Shown here: piece by piece, positions 33,911-41,619 of the stretch
Layout: each line of letters begins with the position of its first letter
How positions within the stretch are numbered: the stretch's first letter is position 1
Source: Oricola sp.
GTDB taxonomy: Bacteria > Pseudomonadota > Alphaproteobacteria > Rhizobiales > Rhizobiaceae
Reading direction: 5' to 3'
NCBI RefSeq assembly: GCF_022763245.1
Contig: NZ_JALEGV010000041.1
Location: 543,223-607,222 of the forward strand
DNA: 64,000 nt
Notes under the pieces: generated by a model
Database searches by the model: none
Told to the model about the DNA's origin: nothing
The model's input: only the letters and a program-made list of their open reading frames with translations
Translations under genes and position numbers: made by a program

Positions 33911-33986
<76 letters not shown>

Positions 33987-34117: not shown

Positions 34118-35416
34118 CTAATAGAGAACCGAAGGCAGCCAGAGCGCGATTGCGGGGAACTGAAGCAGCAGTGCGATCAGCACGAGATGCGCGGCCAGGA
34201 ATGGCACGATGCCCGCGAATATCTTCGCCAGTGGTACGTCGGGCAACTGGCCCTTGATGATGAAGGCGTTCAGCCCGACGGGCGGGGTGATCAGCCCCAT
34301 CTCCACGACGATGACCATGATGACGCCGTACCAGACCGGATCGTAGCCCAGGGCTGTGACCACCGGCAGGAAGACGGGGATCGTCACGAGGATGATCGAG
34401 ATGGAATCGAGGAAGCAACCGAGGACGACGTAAAAGGCCAGGATGCAGATGATCACGAGTTGCGGCGAGGGATCTGCCTGCGTGATCGCATCGACAAGCG
34501 CGTGGGGAATGCGCGTCAGCGCCATGAAATAGGAAAAGAACCAGGCACCGACCAGCGCGAACATCAGCATTGACGTGGTGGTCAGCGTCTCCACGAGGCT
34601 GTTGACGAAATCGCGCCATGTGAGGTTGCCGGTCAGGCGCGCAATGACGACGGCGGCAAACGCCGCGACGCCCGCCGCCTCGGTCGGGCTGAACCACCCG
34701 GAATAGATGCCGCCGACCGCGATCGTGAACAGGAAGAGCATCTTCCAGGTCGGCAGGAGGGGCCGCATTCGCTCGCGAATCGGCATCGGCTCGCTGGCGG
34801 GCATCCAGGCCGGGCGGATCCGGGTGATGATGAAGATGACGGCGACGAAGAGCGCGGTGAGCAACACGCCGGGAAGCATGCCGGCGGCGAACAGCGCCGG
34901 CACCGATTCCTGGGCTGCGAGCGCATAGATCACCATGACGCCGGATGGCGGGATCAGGATGCCGAGTGTCCCGCCCGCCGCCACAGAGCCGGCGGCGATG
35001 CGGATATCGTATCCGTATCTGCGCATTTCGGGCACGCAGATCGGCGCGAAGGTTCCGGCCGTCGCGATGGAAGAGCCGCAGATCGACGAAAAGCCGGCGC
35101 AGCCGCCGACGGTGGCGATCGCCAGGCCGCCGCGCCGGCCGGCCGTCAGCGCGTTGGCGGCCGCATATATCTCCTTGGACATTCCGCTCGCGGTCGCAAT
35201 CGATCCGACCAGGATGAAGAGCGGCAGGACGGCGAAGCCATGGCTGGCAAGGGTTTCCGGCGTGACGCCGATCAGATAGACGGTCCGATCCCATCCGGCG
35301 ATCGCCATGTAGCCGCCGAACCCCACCAGCCCCATCGCCGCGCCCAGCGGAAACCGGAGCAGGATAAGGACCGTCAGGACCACGATGCCGGCGATGCCGA
35401 CCTCGAGTGGCGTCAT
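34118..35416 (-). CDS. TRAP transporter large permease (DctM), second system
   Basis: 432 aa, about 12 hydrophobic segments. DctM landmarks: GCAGFSSICGSSIATAGTF, GGTLGILIPPSGVMVIYAL and MGLITPPVGLNAFII. The ATG at 35416 overlaps the dctQ stop as ATGA. It is the last gene of a five-gene minus-strand operon that begins with a carrier protein-thioesterase and an AMP-forming ligase. The substrate is unknown, probably an organic acid as for the family. It is clearly divergent from the hexuronate DctM at 5939-7219. Confidence 0.93.
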   Translation of the reverse strand: MTPLEVGIAGIVVLTVLILLRFPLGAAMGLVGFGGYMAIAGWDRTVYLIGVTPETLASHGFAVLPLFILVGSIATASGMSKEIYAAANALTAGRRGGLAIATVGGCAGFSSICGSSIATAGTFAPICVPEMRRYGYDIRIAAGSVAAGGTLGILIPPSGVMVIYALAAQESVPALFAAGMLPGVLLTALFVAVIFIITRIRPAWMPASEPMPIRERMRPLLPTWKMLFLFTIAVGGIYSGWFSPTEAAGVAAFAAVVIARLTGNLTWRDFVNSLVETLTTTSMLMFALVGAWFFSYFMALTRIPHALVDAITQADPSPQLVIICILAFYVVLGCFLDSISIILVTIPVFLPVVTALGYDPVWYGVIMVIVVEMGLITPPVGLNAFIIKGQLPDVPLAKIFAGIVPFLAAHLVLIALLLQFPAIALWLPSVLY

Positions 35417-35907
35417 GCCCGCTCCCCTTTCCACCGCAACAGTTTCAGGGTCTCGCGCACCAGCAGGAAGGCAGCGCAAAGGGCCGCGACACACAGGGCG
35501 ATGAAGATCGGGCCCAGCTTCACGATCATCGGGATTTCGCGGTCAGGCGTGAATTCGCCATAGCGCACCGTGTCCATCATCGGCGTGTACATGAAGATCG
35601 CGAGCATGGCGGCGAAGACGAGCATCCCGGCAAGCCCGAACACCCGCAAGAGCTGGATTGCCCGGCCCGGCAGCAGGGCATCGACGATCTCCACCGTGAT
35701 TTGACCGTCCTTGAGCAGGGTCCGGGCGATCGGCAGGAATGCGACCGGCGCCATCAGAAGCGCGACGATCTCGTAGGCACCGAAAATGCGCGCGCCGAGA
35801 AGGTTGCCGAGTGTCACGTCGGCGACGATGAGCCCGACCATCGCGACGAGGCAGATCGCCGCGATGAGAACGAGCGCACCCGCCAGGCGTTCGAGAAGCA
35901 AGTTCAC
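35413..35907 (-). CDS. TRAP transporter small permease (DctQ), second system
   Basis: 164 aa from a GTG at 35907, with four hydrophobic segments (about residues 10-30, 42-62, 85-106 and 130-150). The segment FGAYEIVALLMAPVAFLPIA is characteristic of DctQ. It lies between dctP and dctM, overlapping dctM by 4 bp. Confidence 0.88.
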   Translation of the reverse strand: MNLLLERLAGALVLIAAICLVAMVGLIVADVTLGNLLGARIFGAYEIVALLMAPVAFLPIARTLLKDGQITVEIVDALLPGRAIQLLRVFGLAGMLVFAAMLAIFMYTPMMDTVRYGEFTPDREIPMIVKLGPIFIALCVAALCAAFLLVRETLKLLRWKGERA

Positions 35908-35948
35908 GACCGGTCAGAAACCTCGATCAAGTGCGCGACGCCCGGCCT

Positions 35949-36974
35949 TCAGTTCCGCGCCTGGTCCAGCGCGCGGATGCGGTCATAGAGGGCGCGCAAG
36001 TCGGGATGTTCGGCTTCGAGCTCGGAAAGCAATTCGTCATTATAGGCTTCAGACGCCTTTGCGACGGCCTCGACCAGCGCGGCATCCGGCTCGACGGCTT
36101 CAAGGTCGATCGTCTCGACATACTCGTTGACCATCGGGTTTTCCTCGTCATACGCCTTGACGAAATCCGTCGCGCTTTCCGGGCCGCCAAGGTCGTCGAT
36201 GAGCGGTTTCAGGTCGTCTGGAAGATTGTCATAGGTCGTCGGGTTGATCGCCAGGCCGACCAGGAGATGGATCTTGAGCAGCGGGGTCTGGTAGTCGACC
36301 AGGTCTCCGACCTTCAGGGCCCAGACCGTCCCGCGCGAGGCGTGCAGACCGTCGAGCGAATTCTTCTGCAGCCCCTCGGCGACTTCGCCGGCCGGAATGC
36401 TGATCGGGTCGGCGCCGACCGCGCGCAGCACCGCCTGGCCCGACTTGCTGGTCACCCGTATCCGCTTGCCCTTGATGTCCTCCAACGTGCGCACCGGTGC
36501 GTTGGTCGTGAACAGCCGGTCCTGCGAAAGGGCGGCGAGCCACAACATGCGGACACCCTCATATTCCGGATAGAGCGCCTCTTCCGCAACCTCCTGCACC
36601 GTGCTCGTCGAATCCGCATCGGTCCTGGCGTTGGCGAGTATGTTCGGAAGGGCGAACAGGTCGGTCTTCGTGAAACGGCCCGGCGTATAGGAGGTCACGA
36701 ACATCGCGATGTCGGCGACGCCGGTCCGGACCAGGTCGTAATGTTTCGGGGCCGGCCCCATGGACGATCCGTGGAAGACCTCGGCCTTGATCCTGCCGCC
36801 CGAACGCTCTTCCAGTTGCTTGGCGTAGGTGTCGAGCGCCCGGCCCATGCCGCCGGAAGCGGAGGCGAAATTGGCCAGGCGCAAGGTGATGGTGTCCTGT
36901 GCCTGCGCGGCGGCGCCAACAAGGGAGATCGCCGCGGCGAACGCTAACGTCACGAGACGGGGAAGGTTTTTCAT
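35949..36974 (-). CDS. TRAP transporter substrate-binding protein (DctP), second system
   Basis: 341 aa periplasmic receptor with a Sec signal peptide (LVTLAFAAAISLVGAAAQAQ). The conserved Arg of the ligand site lies in GKRIRVTSKSGQAVLRAVG; QKNSLDGLHASRGTV occupies the position of the usual helix before the second domain. GGAG stands 11 nt before the ATG. It follows the ligase gene after 38 nt and precedes dctQ by 41 nt. Ligand unknown; the neighbouring ligase suggests a carboxylic acid that is then activated as an adenylate. Confidence 0.9.
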   Translation of the reverse strand: MKNLPRLVTLAFAAAISLVGAAAQAQDTITLRLANFASASGGMGRALDTYAKQLEERSGGRIKAEVFHGSSMGPAPKHYDLVRTGVADIAMFVTSYTPGRFTKTDLFALPNILANARTDADSTSTVQEVAEEALYPEYEGVRMLWLAALSQDRLFTTNAPVRTLEDIKGKRIRVTSKSGQAVLRAVGADPISIPAGEVAEGLQKNSLDGLHASRGTVWALKVGDLVDYQTPLLKIHLLVGLAINPTTYDNLPDDLKPLIDDLGGPESATDFVKAYDEENPMVNEYVETIDLEAVEPDAALVEAVAKASEAYNDELLSELEAEHPDLRALYDRIRALDQARN

Positions 36975-37012
36975 CGCTTGTGAGACTCCAGTTCGAAGGG
37001 TGGATTGCGTGG

Positions 37013-38491
37013 TCAGGATTCGACCGGTGACAGCGTTTCGACGAGAACGCGCTTCAGTACCTTTCCCGCATCGTTTCTCGGCAGGCTTGCGACGATGTGG
37101 ATGACGTCGGGGCGCTTGTCCGCGACCAGGCTGGCATGGACCTGGCCGCTCAGCGTCTCCAGCGTCACGCCGGGCTTGACCGTGACGAACAAGGCCAGAC
37201 GCTCGGCCTGCTCCTCGTCGCGGAAGCCCACCGCGGCGGCCTCCATGATCGCGTCCAGGCGCTCCAGCGTGCTCTCGATTTCGCGCGGGAAGATGTTCAC
37301 GCCCTTCCGAACGATCATGTCTGACGCGCGCCCCGTCAGGGTGAGGAAACCCTCTTCGTCGAGAACGCCCAGATCTCCGGGGATCGCCCAGCCGTCGATC
37401 AAGCGGTCGGACAGTTCGCGACGCTCTCCGATGATGCCGTCGGCGATCGTGGGGTTGCGCACGCCGATCAGGCCGGGTTCGCCGCGCGGCAGTTCGTTGC
37501 CCTCCATGTCGGTGATCCTGACGAGCCCGTGCCTGTTCGGCCGACCTACCGATTCCGGCTTCTGGAGGATGTCCTCTCCGTAGAGCGACGAAACGATGCC
37601 GCAGTAGCTCGACCCGTAGGAAATGCGCACCTCACGGGAAAGCTCCCTGTAGGCCCGGACGATGGTCTCGGCGGGGAACGTGCCGCCGGCGCCTCCGAGA
37701 GCCGTGAGATTTGGAAACATCGGCTCGGTGCGGCCGCTCGACAGTTCCAGTAGGCCGAAGAGTTGCGGAGGGACGACAAATGTCTGCCGGGCTTTGCGGG
37801 AGAGGAACTCGTCGGCAATCTCTTCTGCAGAGGAAATCGGCGGCATGATGTAGGTCGGGCTGCCGTCGAGAATCTGCGAGATGTTCCTCATGATCCCGCC
37901 CGCGTAGAACAGCGGCACCGCGTGAACCATCAGCCCGCGGCCGGAGCCGAGATAGTACTGCGAATAGGTCCAGTGCAGGCGCATCGCCGTCTCGTGATTG
38001 AACACCACGCCGACGGGCGTCCCGGTCGTGCCGGACGAGCGAATGATGAAGGCGGGATGCGCCTCGGCGGGCCGAAAGAGGATGTCGTCGCTTTCCGCCA
38101 TCACCGTATCGAGGAGGCTGTCGCCGGTAGCGACCGACAGATATTCGCCGTCCCTGGCGGACGCGCGCGGCTCCACGATCGCGCGGACGTTGAAGGACTG
38201 CGCCAGGGCCGCCTTCTCCTGCCGCCTTGCCCGGAAGTCGACCATCATGCCGGTCGCGCCGACCAGCCATGTTGCCAGGAGGACGATCAGGGCCTGGTCC
38301 GGCTTCGGCAGCGCAATCGCGACGCGATCGCCCGGCACGACGCCGTGCCTGCCGAGATGCCGTGCGGTCCTGTTCGCGCTTCTTACGAGTTCGGCATAGG
38401 TGAAGCTGGAGCTTGGGGTTGCGATCGCTTCGCGGTCAGGTGCCGACGCGGCGATTCCCATGATGCTGTCGATCAGGTTGAAATTGCTCAT
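37013..38491 (-). CDS. Stand-alone AMP-forming ligase (ANL superfamily adenylation enzyme)
   Basis: 492 aa. ANL core motifs are in order: A3 RSSGTTGTPVGVV (151-163), A5 ISYGSSYCG (290-298), A7 PGDLGVLDEEGFLTLTGRAS (371-390), hinge region DMIVRKGVNIFPREIE and A10 NDAGKVLKR with catalytic Lys477. The A3 motif has Val where Lys is usual, and A5 has YGSSYCG instead of YGxTE, so substrate and nucleotide contacts may be unusual. It overlaps the carrier-thioesterase stop codon by 4 bp (ATGA), implying the two proteins work together: the ligase would adenylate an acid and load it on the carrier Ser. It could also be an acyl-CoA synthetase. Confidence 0.85.
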   Translation of the reverse strand: MSNFNLIDSIMGIAASAPDREAIATPSSSFTYAELVRSANRTARHLGRHGVVPGDRVAIALPKPDQALIVLLATWLVGATGMMVDFRARRQEKAALAQSFNVRAIVEPRASARDGEYLSVATGDSLLDTVMAESDDILFRPAEAHPAFIIRSSGTTGTPVGVVFNHETAMRLHWTYSQYYLGSGRGLMVHAVPLFYAGGIMRNISQILDGSPTYIMPPISSAEEIADEFLSRKARQTFVVPPQLFGLLELSSGRTEPMFPNLTALGGAGGTFPAETIVRAYRELSREVRISYGSSYCGIVSSLYGEDILQKPESVGRPNRHGLVRITDMEGNELPRGEPGLIGVRNPTIADGIIGERRELSDRLIDGWAIPGDLGVLDEEGFLTLTGRASDMIVRKGVNIFPREIESTLERLDAIMEAAAVGFRDEEQAERLALFVTVKPGVTLETLSGQVHASLVADKRPDVIHIVASLPRNDAGKVLKRVLVETLSPVES

Positions 38492-39906
38492 GTCGCGTAT
38501 TGCCGTTCTTCATCGGCTGCCGGGGCGAGATCGACGCGCAATTGATCCACCTGACGCGCGAGGACGTCCGGGTCCTCCCCGTCGATCAGTCTCTGCAGGA
38601 TGCGCGCCGTGACCGGAGATCTCACCGCCTGCGCGTGGTTTTCGCCGGAGACGATGATCTTCCTGTTGGGCAGCGTCCGGTTGATCGGGAAATCCGGGTC
38701 CGTCATGGCCCGGTTCAGCTTCTCGTTGCCGATGATGATCACGGGATGATCGGACGGTTTGACGACGTGGGCACGGAATGCGTGTTTGAGCATCACCCGC
38801 GTCAAGGCCCCGTGTTCGCTGCGGGACTGCTCGACCAGCTTTGGATCGACATCTGTCCTGTCGCGCCTGACGGGCGCGCGGCCGAGCAGGCGCTTGACGA
38901 AGCGCTTGGCGCTGGGGCGCTGGTTGGCGGCATCGAGATATCTGCGAACGATGAAATCCCGGACCCGCTCGTTTCTGATCGCTTCCGGACTTCTTTCCTC
39001 GATGAAGACGCCGGTATTCGCGAAGACATAGAGCTTGCTCACCAGGCTGATGGTCTCGTCGGCAATCCGGTTCAAGACGCCGGAAGGAACCGGGAGCGTC
39101 AAGCGCGAAAGCTGGACCGTCCGATACGCGTCCTTCTGCGTCTTCTGGATCACCGGATCGATCAGGATCACCTTGTCGGGCTTGATACCCTCGGCCTCCA
39201 TCAGCCGGACCATTTCAACAGCGATCCACCCCCCGGCGCACAGGGCTCCCAGGATCCAAGGTCCGTTCGGCCGGACATCCAGCATCATCCGCAGATAGGC
39301 CTCTGCGATATCCTCGACCCGGCCAAGCGGCTCGGCGGCGCCGTCGAAGCCGACGGCGTGAAAGATGTAGATCGGCTGCTGCGGGTCGATCGCCGCGCGG
39401 AATTCGGGCCGCAGGAACGCCATGCCGGCATTTCCGTGGACGAGGAAGATCGGCGTCTTGTTTCCCTCGGCGTTGATGCTGGTCAGATTGCCGGGGAGTT
39501 CCGACGGGGCCTTGCCCTGAAGTCCGGCAACCAGCACGGCCAACTTGCGCGGCGTGTTGATGTCCAGCAACTGGCTCTGCTTGAACGCGATGTTGAAGGT
39601 CGAACCCAGTGCGATCGCAAGGCCCTCCGCGACCAGCGAGTCTCCGCCGAGTTCAAAAAAATCGTCTTCGACGCCAACGCGGTCGAGCTCGAAGATGTCC
39701 GCCCAGATCTCCGTCAGTTTCTGTTCAAGAGTGCTGGACGGAGGGACGTATTCATCGAGATCAAGGAAATCCCTAGGCTTGCGCTGACCCAATTGCCAAT
39801 CCCCGAATCTCACCTCGAACTTTGCGTCAGGAAAGGCATACAATGCGAAGCGCTTCGTGCCAAGAAAAGTCCTTTTGACCGCAAGGGGAGCAAGTCGCGT
39901 CAGCAC
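38488..39906 (-). CDS. Peptidyl carrier protein-thioesterase didomain (NRPS-like) with Cys nucleophile
   Basis: 472 aa. Residues 55-130 form a phosphopantetheine carrier domain, with DDFFELGGDSL holding attachment Ser90. A type I thioesterase/alpha-beta hydrolase follows (about 150-440): oxyanion strand IFLVHGNAG, nucleophile elbow ILGALCAGGW with Cys223 where Ser is usual, Asp250 in VILIDP, and His424 in GENHAQ, so the triad is complete with Cys. The first 50 residues match nothing I know. There is no adenylation or condensation domain. The GTG start at 39906 has a poor ribosome site; an in-frame stop lies just upstream. It overlaps the ligase gene by ATGA and heads the operon with the second TRAP system. 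Confidence 0.82.
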   Translation of the reverse strand: MLTRLAPLAVKRTFLGTKRFALYAFPDAKFEVRFGDWQLGQRKPRDFLDLDEYVPPSSTLEQKLTEIWADIFELDRVGVEDDFFELGGDSLVAEGLAIALGSTFNIAFKQSQLLDINTPRKLAVLVAGLQGKAPSELPGNLTSINAEGNKTPIFLVHGNAGMAFLRPEFRAAIDPQQPIYIFHAVGFDGAAEPLGRVEDIAEAYLRMMLDVRPNGPWILGALCAGGWIAVEMVRLMEAEGIKPDKVILIDPVIQKTQKDAYRTVQLSRLTLPVPSGVLNRIADETISLVSKLYVFANTGVFIEERSPEAIRNERVRDFIVRRYLDAANQRPSAKRFVKRLLGRAPVRRDRTDVDPKLVEQSRSEHGALTRVMLKHAFRAHVVKPSDHPVIIIGNEKLNRAMTDPDFPINRTLPNRKIIVSGENHAQAVRSPVTARILQRLIDGEDPDVLARQVDQLRVDLAPAADEERQYAT

Positions 39907-40023: not shown

Positions 40024-41619
40024 TCAGTCGATCAGGAGATATCTGAACCAGAGAGGGCCGGAAGGGTAGGACAGCGTCACCGGTATGGACGAGCGTCCGT
40101 AGCTTTTCGCCGACTCGATTGCCTTGAAGATATCGTCGGCAGAGGCGACGGTCTTTTCGTTGACCTGGAACATCTCCACGCCAGACCGAATGCCGGCGTT
40201 TGCGGCTGCGCTGCCTGATGCGACCGCGGTGACGAGAACGCCGCGGCCATCTCCAAACGGCAGCACCGTCAAGCCATACCCGGCGAGCGCGATCTCGGGC
40301 GGTGTGGACTCGGTGTCTTCGCCGTCTTCAGTTTTCAGGACGGCGTAGCTGTAGCGATCATGATGCTCGACCAGAAGCGCCACGGCCCTTCTGCCTGAAG
40401 CCGCGACAGCGCCCAAGCTCTCTTCGATGTCGGCAGCCGAAGCCACGTCCTCGCGATCGACGCTGACAATCCGCGATCCGGCGGTGATTTCGGCATCGTC
40501 TGCGGCGCTGCCAGGCTGCACGCCGATGACGCGAACGCCGTAGCCTTTCTCGTCCGGCGTGACCATCAGGCCGTATTCGGCAAGCGTCGTCCTGCGCTTC
40601 CTTTCGGGTTCTGTCGGCTCGGGTTCCGGCTTTGCCATCGCTTCTTCGCTCTTGGAGAGCGATTCGATCCGTCGCCTCGCCAGCGCGTCGTAGAAGGCGT
40701 TCTTCTCGCCGAATTGTTCGCGAAACGCTTCGAGCAGGCTGATGTCGTCCGTCTGTTCCACGATGGCCCATGCCGCGACGACCGTGTCGGCGGACACGCT
40801 CTCCTCCGGCGTCTCGTCGACGGCGGCAGGCACGCCGGGCTCCGGCTCGATCAGGAATATCGGCCGGCCCGGCAGCGAACTGTATTCCGCGGGTTTCTGG
40901 GTGCCCGTGCTCTGCAAGACGTCCTCGCGCACCTTGCCGAACATGAACCGGATATCGAGGCCCGGTTCCCCGATATGCTTCAGGAGGGCCCGGGCGTAGG
41001 GGCTGTTTCGCCCGGAGCCGTCGTCCGCCGTCGTGCCGGCCGCCGCCGAATAGGCGATCAGCATGTTGCCGGAGGCCGGCTCGACGCGGGAAAACCCCCT
41101 GCCGACCGAACGCTTCTGCGAGGTCATTTCCATGGTCTGCGCAAACGGGTTGTCGCGGCAGGCGTCGAGGATGAGAAGCTTGAGCCCCTCGACATCCGCG
41201 ATGGCCTGGGTGAGCTGCGCGATCTCGAAGGCCTCGTAGGGCAGGTCGCGATCCGTCGCCAGTTCCGCGTCGGTCGGGATCAGGTAGTTGCGCCCGCCTA
41301 CCTCCATGCCGTGCCCGGCGAAATAGATGACGGCGATGTCCGCGCCCGCGGCCTTGCGACTGAACTCCCGCAACGCCCGGCGCATGCCGGCAAAGGTCAG
41401 GTCATGGTGCAGATCGACGTCGAAGTTCAGCCCCTCGAAGGCCGTCGCCAGATCGTCGGCGTCGTTGACGGGGTTGTTGAGCCGGATCTCGTTGCTGTAG
41501 GCGGCGTTGCCGATGATCAGCGCGACGCGGCCTTTCGCCAGGCCGGGGGAGGCCACCAGCAAGCAGACCGCGAGGGCGGCGAAAAGAACCAGGATCTGCG
41601 GTCTTGCGCGTGTCGGCAT
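40024..41619 (-). CDS. Exported caspase-family (peptidase C14) protein with two PDZ domains
   Basis: 531 aa. A Sec signal or anchor (ILVLFAALAVCLLVASPGLA) precedes a caspase-like domain (about 30-258) with catalytic His103 in YFAGHGMEV and Cys154 in LILDACRDNPF. A Glu/Pro-rich linker follows, then two PDZ-like domains (about 340-415 and 435-515; YGVRVIGVQPGSAADDAEIT and GRGVLVTAVASGSAAANAGI). The enzyme should act in the periplasm; bacterial relatives prefer basic residues at the cut site. The ATG at 41619 has GGGGAG 6 nt upstream. It is 117 nt upstream of the carrier-thioesterase gene on the same strand, perhaps co-transcribed. Target unknown. Confidence 0.85.
   Translation of the reverse strand: MPTRARPQILVLFAALAVCLLVASPGLAKGRVALIIGNAAYSNEIRLNNPVNDADDLATAFEGLNFDVDLHHDLTFAGMRRALREFSRKAAGADIAVIYFAGHGMEVGGRNYLIPTDAELATDRDLPYEAFEIAQLTQAIADVEGLKLLILDACRDNPFAQTMEMTSQKRSVGRGFSRVEPASGNMLIAYSAAAGTTADDGSGRNSPYARALLKHIGEPGLDIRFMFGKVREDVLQSTGTQKPAEYSSLPGRPIFLIEPEPGVPAAVDETPEESVSADTVVAAWAIVEQTDDISLLEAFREQFGEKNAFYDALARRRIESLSKSEEAMAKPEPEPTEPERKRRTTLAEYGLMVTPDEKGYGVRVIGVQPGSAADDAEITAGSRIVSVDREDVASAADIEESLGAVAASGRRAVALLVEHHDRYSYAVLKTEDGEDTESTPPEIALAGYGLTVLPFGDGRGVLVTAVASGSAAANAGIRSGVEMFQVNEKTVASADDIFKAIESAKSYGRSSIPVTLSYPSGPLWFRYLLID

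Follow-up and report, generated by a model that had tools for sequence, protein, structure and literature searches.

A free-standing carrier-thioesterase and a divergent ANL ligase share an operon with a TRAP transporter in Oricola sp.: a possible import-coupled acyl-transfer cassette

Peptidyl carrier protein-thioesterase (PCP-TE) didomains are known from nonribosomal peptide synthetases (NRPSs), including AB3403 (ABBFA_003403, PDB 4zxh), an NRPS termination module of Acinetobacter baumannii that forms one four-domain polypeptide, and ObiF1 and SulM, of obafluorin and sulfazecin, respectively. Tripartite ATP-independent periplasmic (TRAP) transporters and tripartite tricarboxylate transporters (TTT) are import systems, and TRAP transporters carry carboxylic acids. 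The Cys-type TEs of ObiF1 and SulM form a beta-lactone and a beta-lactam, respectively (PMC6668435, PMC11298585); in ObiF1, Cys supports ring closure and a Cys-to-Ser change leads to dominant hydrolysis (PMC6668435). Here, these systems are compared with an operon in a 64,000-nucleotide stretch of Oricola sp. DNA (contig NZ_JALEGV010000041.1, positions 543,223 to 607,222), hereafter called the window, in which a free-standing PCP-TE, a divergent ligase of the ANL superfamily and a TRAP transporter are encoded together. The operon and the importer-linked PCP-TE and ligase pairs of its relatives suggest a pathway, so far undescribed, in which an acid is taken up and then joined to another molecule. 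Searches of open-licence papers yielded none on these genes as a set, which is in keeping with an earlier model reading of the sequence (the original prediction) that knew of no described system with this composition.

The features on which the comparison rests are listed below; residues of the PCP-TE are numbered from GTG 39906, the start chosen in the original prediction.

38488..39906, minus strand: free-standing PCP-TE didomain (Pfam PP-binding 2.1e-11 and Thioesterase 1.3e-9; alignments, AlphaFold model, tree)
39639-39637, minus strand: carrier Ser90 of the PCP-TE (alignments)
39240-39238, 39159-39157 and 38637-38635, minus strand: TE triad Cys223, Asp250 and His424, respectively (alignments)
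37013..38491, minus strand: divergent ANL ligase (Pfam AMP-binding 8.6e-42 and AMP-binding_C 1.1e-10; motif alignments, tree, HMMER against PDB chains)
37606-37604, minus strand: A5 site of the ligase, Tyr296 in place of Glu (motif alignment)
37063-37061, minus strand: A10 Lys477 of the ligase (motif alignment)
35949..36974, minus strand: DctP, TRAP periplasmic solute receptor (Pfam DctP 1.1e-33; NCBIfam TRAP_S1 above cut-off; PDB TRAP receptors match)
35413..35907, minus strand: DctQ, TRAP small membrane subunit (Pfam DctQ 2.1e-13)
34118..35416, minus strand: DctM, TRAP large membrane subunit (Pfam DctM 2.1e-85; TIGR00786 above cut-off)

The five genes occupy positions 39906-34118 of the minus strand, and both their Pfam matches, all of which exceed the curated cut-offs, and their coordinates agree with the gene order originally predicted, including the ATGA overlaps between the PCP-TE and ligase genes (38491-38488) and between dctQ and dctM (35416-35413). 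Gaps of 38 nt and 41 nt separate the ligase gene from dctP and dctP from dctQ, respectively. The TRAP set is complete and ordinary; a signal peptide was recognized by eye in DctP, and the start of dctM is ATG 35416 rather than that of the longer GTG open reading frame (ORF) in the ORF list. GTG 39906 is probably too early a start for the PCP-TE, because residues 1-39 are modelled with a predicted local distance difference test score (pLDDT) below 50 and the relatives have shorter N-termini (1-29 residues upstream of the shared Arg45 in 15 relatives as delimited, 44 in the window protein); GTG 39813 and TTG 39792 are in-frame candidates.

By sequence, profile and fold, the top solved match of the PCP-TE is AB3403, the fold match being loose (query TM-score 0.39). 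The two share the PCP-TE order, a Cys nucleophile that aligns with the family Cys, and a triad Asp at position I (PMC11298585), although the window PCP-TE is free-standing, with its ligase on another polypeptide and an importer alongside. The alpha/beta hydrolase fold and nucleophile-Asp-His triad of NRPS-type TEs are recognizable in the alignment and in Foldseek matches to NRPS TEs. The carrier Ser for phosphopantetheine, predicted as Ser90, is invariant in 16/16 family members, as are Cys223, Asp250 and His424. These 16 members form one clade (100/100) in a tree with many open branches and long rows, from which this clade and one trio (genomes G712, G660 and G603; 100/99) are used here. The Cys nucleophile of all 16 contrasts with the Ser found in 7/7 NRPS TEs compared, which were chosen among partial matches in genomes that share the family, order or class of the window. 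ObiF1 and SulM likewise combine a PCP-TE didomain, an alpha/beta hydrolase fold and a GxCxG-type nucleophile, but their triad Asp follows strand beta7 (position II). In the AlphaFold model (mean pLDDT 81.8, residues 1-39 unstructured), Asp250 lies 27 residues past Cys223 and ends strand 245-249 before the lid, a location that we take to be position I from general knowledge and the description in PMC11298585. The lid itself, by our reading of the model, comprises about 139 residues (250-388, the next strand beginning at 389), exceeding the range of 54-101 residues known from solved NRPS TEs (PMC11298585). A Cys TE favours ring closure or transfer of the acyl group rather than hydrolysis. With such a nucleophile, the release by the TE that was originally proposed is less likely to be plain hydrolysis. 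The operon also departs from an NRPS in that its genome gave no condensation domain match (PF00668, E<=0.001), as had been expected.

The ligase, in which both ANL domains are recognized, shows full-length similarity to enzymes of the FadD5 and malonyl-CoA synthetase type (PDB 8r2q and 4fuq) and has most core motifs in common with them. It forms one clade (100/100) with the ligases of G660, G712, G701, G044 and G024, against 19 other ANLs (18 of its own genome and one of G024); the six are the best matches of one another within this set, and the window ligase is 22.9-28.6% identical to the 18 own-genome ANLs. Unlike the FadD5 and malonyl-CoA synthetase type enzymes, all clade members lack the Glu of motif A5 and the Tyr of motif A6. 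The Mg2+-binding A5 Glu (Glu328 of the Thermus thermophilus long-chain acyl-CoA synthetase) is found in 0/6 clade ligases versus 19/19 comparison ANLs, being replaced by Y, V, L, L, V and I (window, G660, G712, G701, G044 and G024, respectively). The A6 Tyr, present in 17/19 of the others, is replaced by I, I, T, I, I and I in the same order, and the P-loop Lys is retained in 2/6 clade ligases versus 19/19. In HMMER alignments to FadD5 and malonyl-CoA synthetase, Tyr296 stands opposite their Glu; when a clade profile was compared with the PDB, the FadD13 Glu fell opposite the clade residue and that of FadD5 was placed as an insertion, with no clade Glu either way. According to PMC6122825, this Glu is among five residues that do not vary across 374 ANLs, binds Mg2+ and has a Tyr as hydrogen-bond partner, which in our reading is probably the lost A6 column. 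In 4-chlorobenzoate ligase, mutation of the corresponding residue, Glu306, lowers activity 50-fold (PMC8388817). On the other hand, the A7 Asp (6/6), the A8 Arg (6/6) and the A10 Lys (5/5 of those reaching A10) are kept, in the window ligase as Asp373, Arg388 and Lys477, and the A10 Lys acts in the adenylation step (PMC8388817). This retention suggests selection, not decay, and that the window ligase adenylates an acid and loads the carrier is likely but unproven. As the Mg2+-binding Glu is missing, the adenylation behind the originally predicted activation is not to be assumed. A structure model of the ligase, with a mean pLDDT of 74 and low values at 322-376 and 386-392, was set aside for the active site.

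Relatives of the free-standing PCP-TE were detected in 10/394 genomes of the family (PCP-TE profile, E<=1e-60). Outside one genus (g20), seven loci were read: the window, L109 (G044), L140 (G603), L141 (G660), L142 (G712), L143 (G687) and L144 (G701). In 5/7 of these a clade ligase gene lies directly beside a receptor-dependent importer, which is TRAP-DctM in two, TTT in two and TAXI-TRAP in one. G044 encodes TctC-TctB-TctA-ligase-PCP-TE on one strand, with the TTT set confirmed by family models and 28 nt between ligase and importer. In G660, the end of a DctM gene 71% identical to that of the window directly follows the ligase, whose matches stop at residue 411 where the DctM end abuts (L141:1520-3162); the stretch between the two was removed either by deletion or by misassembly in the draft genome. 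The ligase of G712 is convergent with a TctA-TctB fusion gene, which it overlaps by 12 nt; the TctA part scores above its cut-off (2.7e-116) and the TctB part below, and the receptor has a TctC match of 6.3e-4, below the Pfam cut-off. The G701 ligase is divergent, at 87 nt, from a TAXI receptor and a fused TRAP permease, both above the NCBIfam cut-offs. The window, TAXI and G044 sets match the models of known TRAP (DctPQM), TAXI-TRAP and TTT (TctCBA) importers, and the G712 set does so in part, but here these importers are combined with a ligase and a PCP-TE. The predicted co-occurrence of the pair with TRAP genes recurs in other genomes, contrary to the possibility that the two are never found together, although the link proved to be with an importer type (TRAP, TAXI-TRAP or TTT) and not with DctPQM itself. 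At L140 (9338-11316), the PCP-TE gene of G603 is directly followed by an Sfp-type phosphopantetheinyl transferase gene, and the opposite strand carries an NRPS-like gene.

As controls, 38 other ANL genes were taken from three of the same genomes, being the better-scoring part of the ANL matches listed for G000 (18 of 29), G701 (10 of 20) and G044 (10 of 16). A TRAP or TTT match lay within about 5.5 kb of 6/38, and an importer was directly adjacent to 1/38 (G044, 4 nt), the next nearest being at 992 nt. In the sole adjacent case, genes for DctP and DctM directly precede an ordinary ANL gene (L246, G044:C98:66600-78600). An importer gene within 90 nt thus accompanies 5/5 importer-linked pair ligases versus 1/38 controls, a limit chosen after the data were seen and applied to five loci that are related, yet represent three importer classes. 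The grouping of PCP-TE, ligase and importer is unlikely to have arisen by chance, as other genera also have the pair beside an importer.

The PCP-TE is rare. It had no match at E<=1e-60 in five other genomes of its own genus (G001-G005), and in class (385 genomes, E<=1e-40), phylum (299, 1e-50) and order (377, 1e-60) samples, which overlap and in which no more than 4-6 candidates per genome were scored, a full-length free-standing PCP-TE was found in its own genome only. Nine other class matches and one other phylum match (G1054) covered only the first 200-230 or so of 414 profile positions. A search of genome contigs with the PCP-TE by itself gave no full-length relative among the best 80 of 162 loci, and none of 84 plasmid records spanned 80% of the query; most contig and plasmid matches are ends of NRPS or polyketide synthase proteins, judged from ORF length and annotation. 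Whether genomes without the PCP-TE also lack the ligase clade was examined in 61 genomes, of which only the own genome and G024 gave a ligase match at E<=1e-60. The partial relative in G1054 also has, by eye, the GxCxG motif of a Cys-type TE; its own N-terminal part gave no PP-binding match, and it adjoins a carrier-sulfotransferase fusion, a phosphopantetheinyl transferase and a sulfotransferase gene (L151:3328-10653), at a locus that also holds Poly_export and Wzc-like (polysaccharide export) genes.

In the g20 genus (G024, G548 and G617; L105-L108, L145-L147, L148-L150), paralogous Cys-type PCP-TEs are arranged in arrays, in some of which GT25 glycosyltransferase genes are interspersed. G024 has nine PCP-TE matches and one clade ligase, which is located elsewhere (L110; 25 of 45 candidates scored) and adjoins a flavin halogenase-like gene (Trp_halogenase 1.3e-9; L110:9241-12942). 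A second Trp_halogenase gene is located close to two PCP-TE genes (L105:14139-15701).

In the proposed pathway, the TRAP transporter would bring in a carboxylic acid, as its class implies, and the ligase would use ATP to activate this acid and link it, as a thioester, to the phosphopantetheine arm that Ser90 bears. The Cys223-Asp250-His424 triad would then receive the acyl group, again in thioester form, and, because the Cys is invariant and the lid long, would presumably hand it to an alcohol or amine acceptor and not to water. In relatives the acceptor may be a surface-glycan sugar. Glycosyltransferase or sulfotransferase genes occur near the PCP-TE in G712, G044, G687, G024 and G548, and a GT25 relative also in G617, and the G1054 locus likewise has sulfotransferase genes; these glycan genes give a lead to the acceptor rather than a result. 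It appears that importer and ligase together make up a substrate module that can be exchanged while the PCP-TE stays constant. The G712 PCP-TE belongs to the trio with G660 and G603, while its ligase falls outside the window-G660-G024 group (100/99) and its importer is of the TTT and not the TRAP type; this conflict between the trees, the one clear case, fits importer and ligase swapping together. An import-coupled, carrier-bound acyl-transfer cassette is a plausible overall reading, to which we would give somewhat less than an even chance. The more specific combination of exchangeable importer and ligase modules, a Cys PCP-TE acylating surface glycans and an adenylating lineage in which the Mg2+-binding Glu is replaced is doubtful. 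Taken as a whole, the interpretation originally offered, in which an imported acid is activated, loaded on Ser90 and released, is partly supported.

Several observations weigh against the proposed cassette. One-strand arrays are limited to the window, G660 and G044, the genes of G701 and G712 not being co-directional with the importer, and the G660 ligase is cut short. Neither G603 nor G687 (a 5.3 kb contig) shows a ligase or a TRAP or TTT gene on the stretch read, G603 carrying an ATP-binding cassette-type receptor gene in place of such an importer, and no TRAP or TTT gene was seen in 11 regions read in the three g20 genomes. With the A5 Glu missing from 6/6 clade ligases and the P-loop Lys from 4/6, adenylation could be weak or altered. 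Conversion of the carrier to its holo form is not assured, because the only PF01648 phosphopantetheinyl transferase found in the own genome is AcpS (TIGR00516 above cut-off). No glycan gene is present among the neighbours of the operon that were examined in the window.

The relatives that lack an importer (G603, G687 and the G024 genus) would be expected if the importer merely stood beside an unrelated two-gene locus, but such a chance neighbourhood is very improbable given that 5/5 pair ligases, from four genera and with three importer classes, adjoin an importer, compared with 1/38 controls. TRAP and TTT importers are frequently catabolic, and importers near 6/38 ordinary ANL genes, together with the halogenase-like flavoenzyme genes near PCP-TE or ligase genes in G024, would suit a catabolic role in which the carrier holds the acid for modification by an unlinked enzyme before hydrolysis to a new acid that feeds metabolism. 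However, the operon has no modifying enzyme, none was recognized directly beside the five importer-linked pairs among the annotated flanking genes, and hydrolysis is disfavoured by a Cys TE (PMC6668435), which leaves this role quite unlikely.

The invariant Cys and the ring-forming activities of ObiF1 and SulM (PMC6668435, PMC11298585) would also accommodate an intramolecular release, whereby an imported hydroxy or amino acid is closed to a lactone or lactam and no second acceptor is needed. We consider this unlikely, as Asp250 occupies position I, as in AB3403, and not position II, as in the ring-forming enzymes, and the glycan-gene neighbours of the relatives hint at an external acceptor. 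The ligase might also no longer adenylate, and instead move a pre-activated acyl group to the carrier or act as a regulatory or scaffold partner. A Glu invariant in 374 ANLs (PMC6122825) and its probable partner Tyr are both lost in 6/6 clade ligases and the P-loop Lys in 4/6, and the 50-fold less active Glu306 mutant of 4-chlorobenzoate ligase (PMC8388817) points the same way; yet the Lys of the adenylation step (PMC8388817) is kept in 5/5 ligases that reach it and the A7 Asp and A8 Arg in 6/6, so that this alternative, too, has little probability. The acyl-transfer cassette is the preferred reading.

The examined neighbours of the operon have a housekeeping or unrelated look and comprise an rpsA-like S1-domain gene, genes for cytidylate kinase, 5-enolpyruvylshikimate-3-phosphate (EPSP) synthase and S-adenosylmethionine synthetase, a FYDLN_acid gene, a caspase-PDZ gene, two genes for which Pfam gave no match, a helix-turn-helix gene and a tRNA gene:

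33911..33986, plus strand: tRNA-Ala(GGC), 131 nt from the dctM end

The caspase-PDZ gene encodes a Peptidase_C14 caspase-domain protein with PDZ domains (40024-41619, minus strand); it immediately precedes the operon and shares its strand. An integrated element at the tRNA gene was considered, but this test gave no sign of one, the 3' end of the tRNA not being repeated elsewhere in the window. The promoter scan returned no promoter-like site, and terminator-like sites were no commoner than in shuffled sequence. Relatives of DctP were also considered as a guide to the substrate; the best PDB TRAP receptor scored 105 bits, the matches span many molecules, and no conclusion was drawn.

If the proposed cassette is correct, importers of the nutrient type would be tied to carrier-protein chemistry without an assembly line, and an acid from the environment would be taken up for attachment rather than eaten. 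The operon raises two questions, namely how adenylation could proceed without the Mg2+-binding Glu and whether a Cys TE with an oversized lid acts as an intermolecular acyltransferase. The importer receptor would, moreover, offer a practical handle on the substrate of an otherwise orphan ligase.

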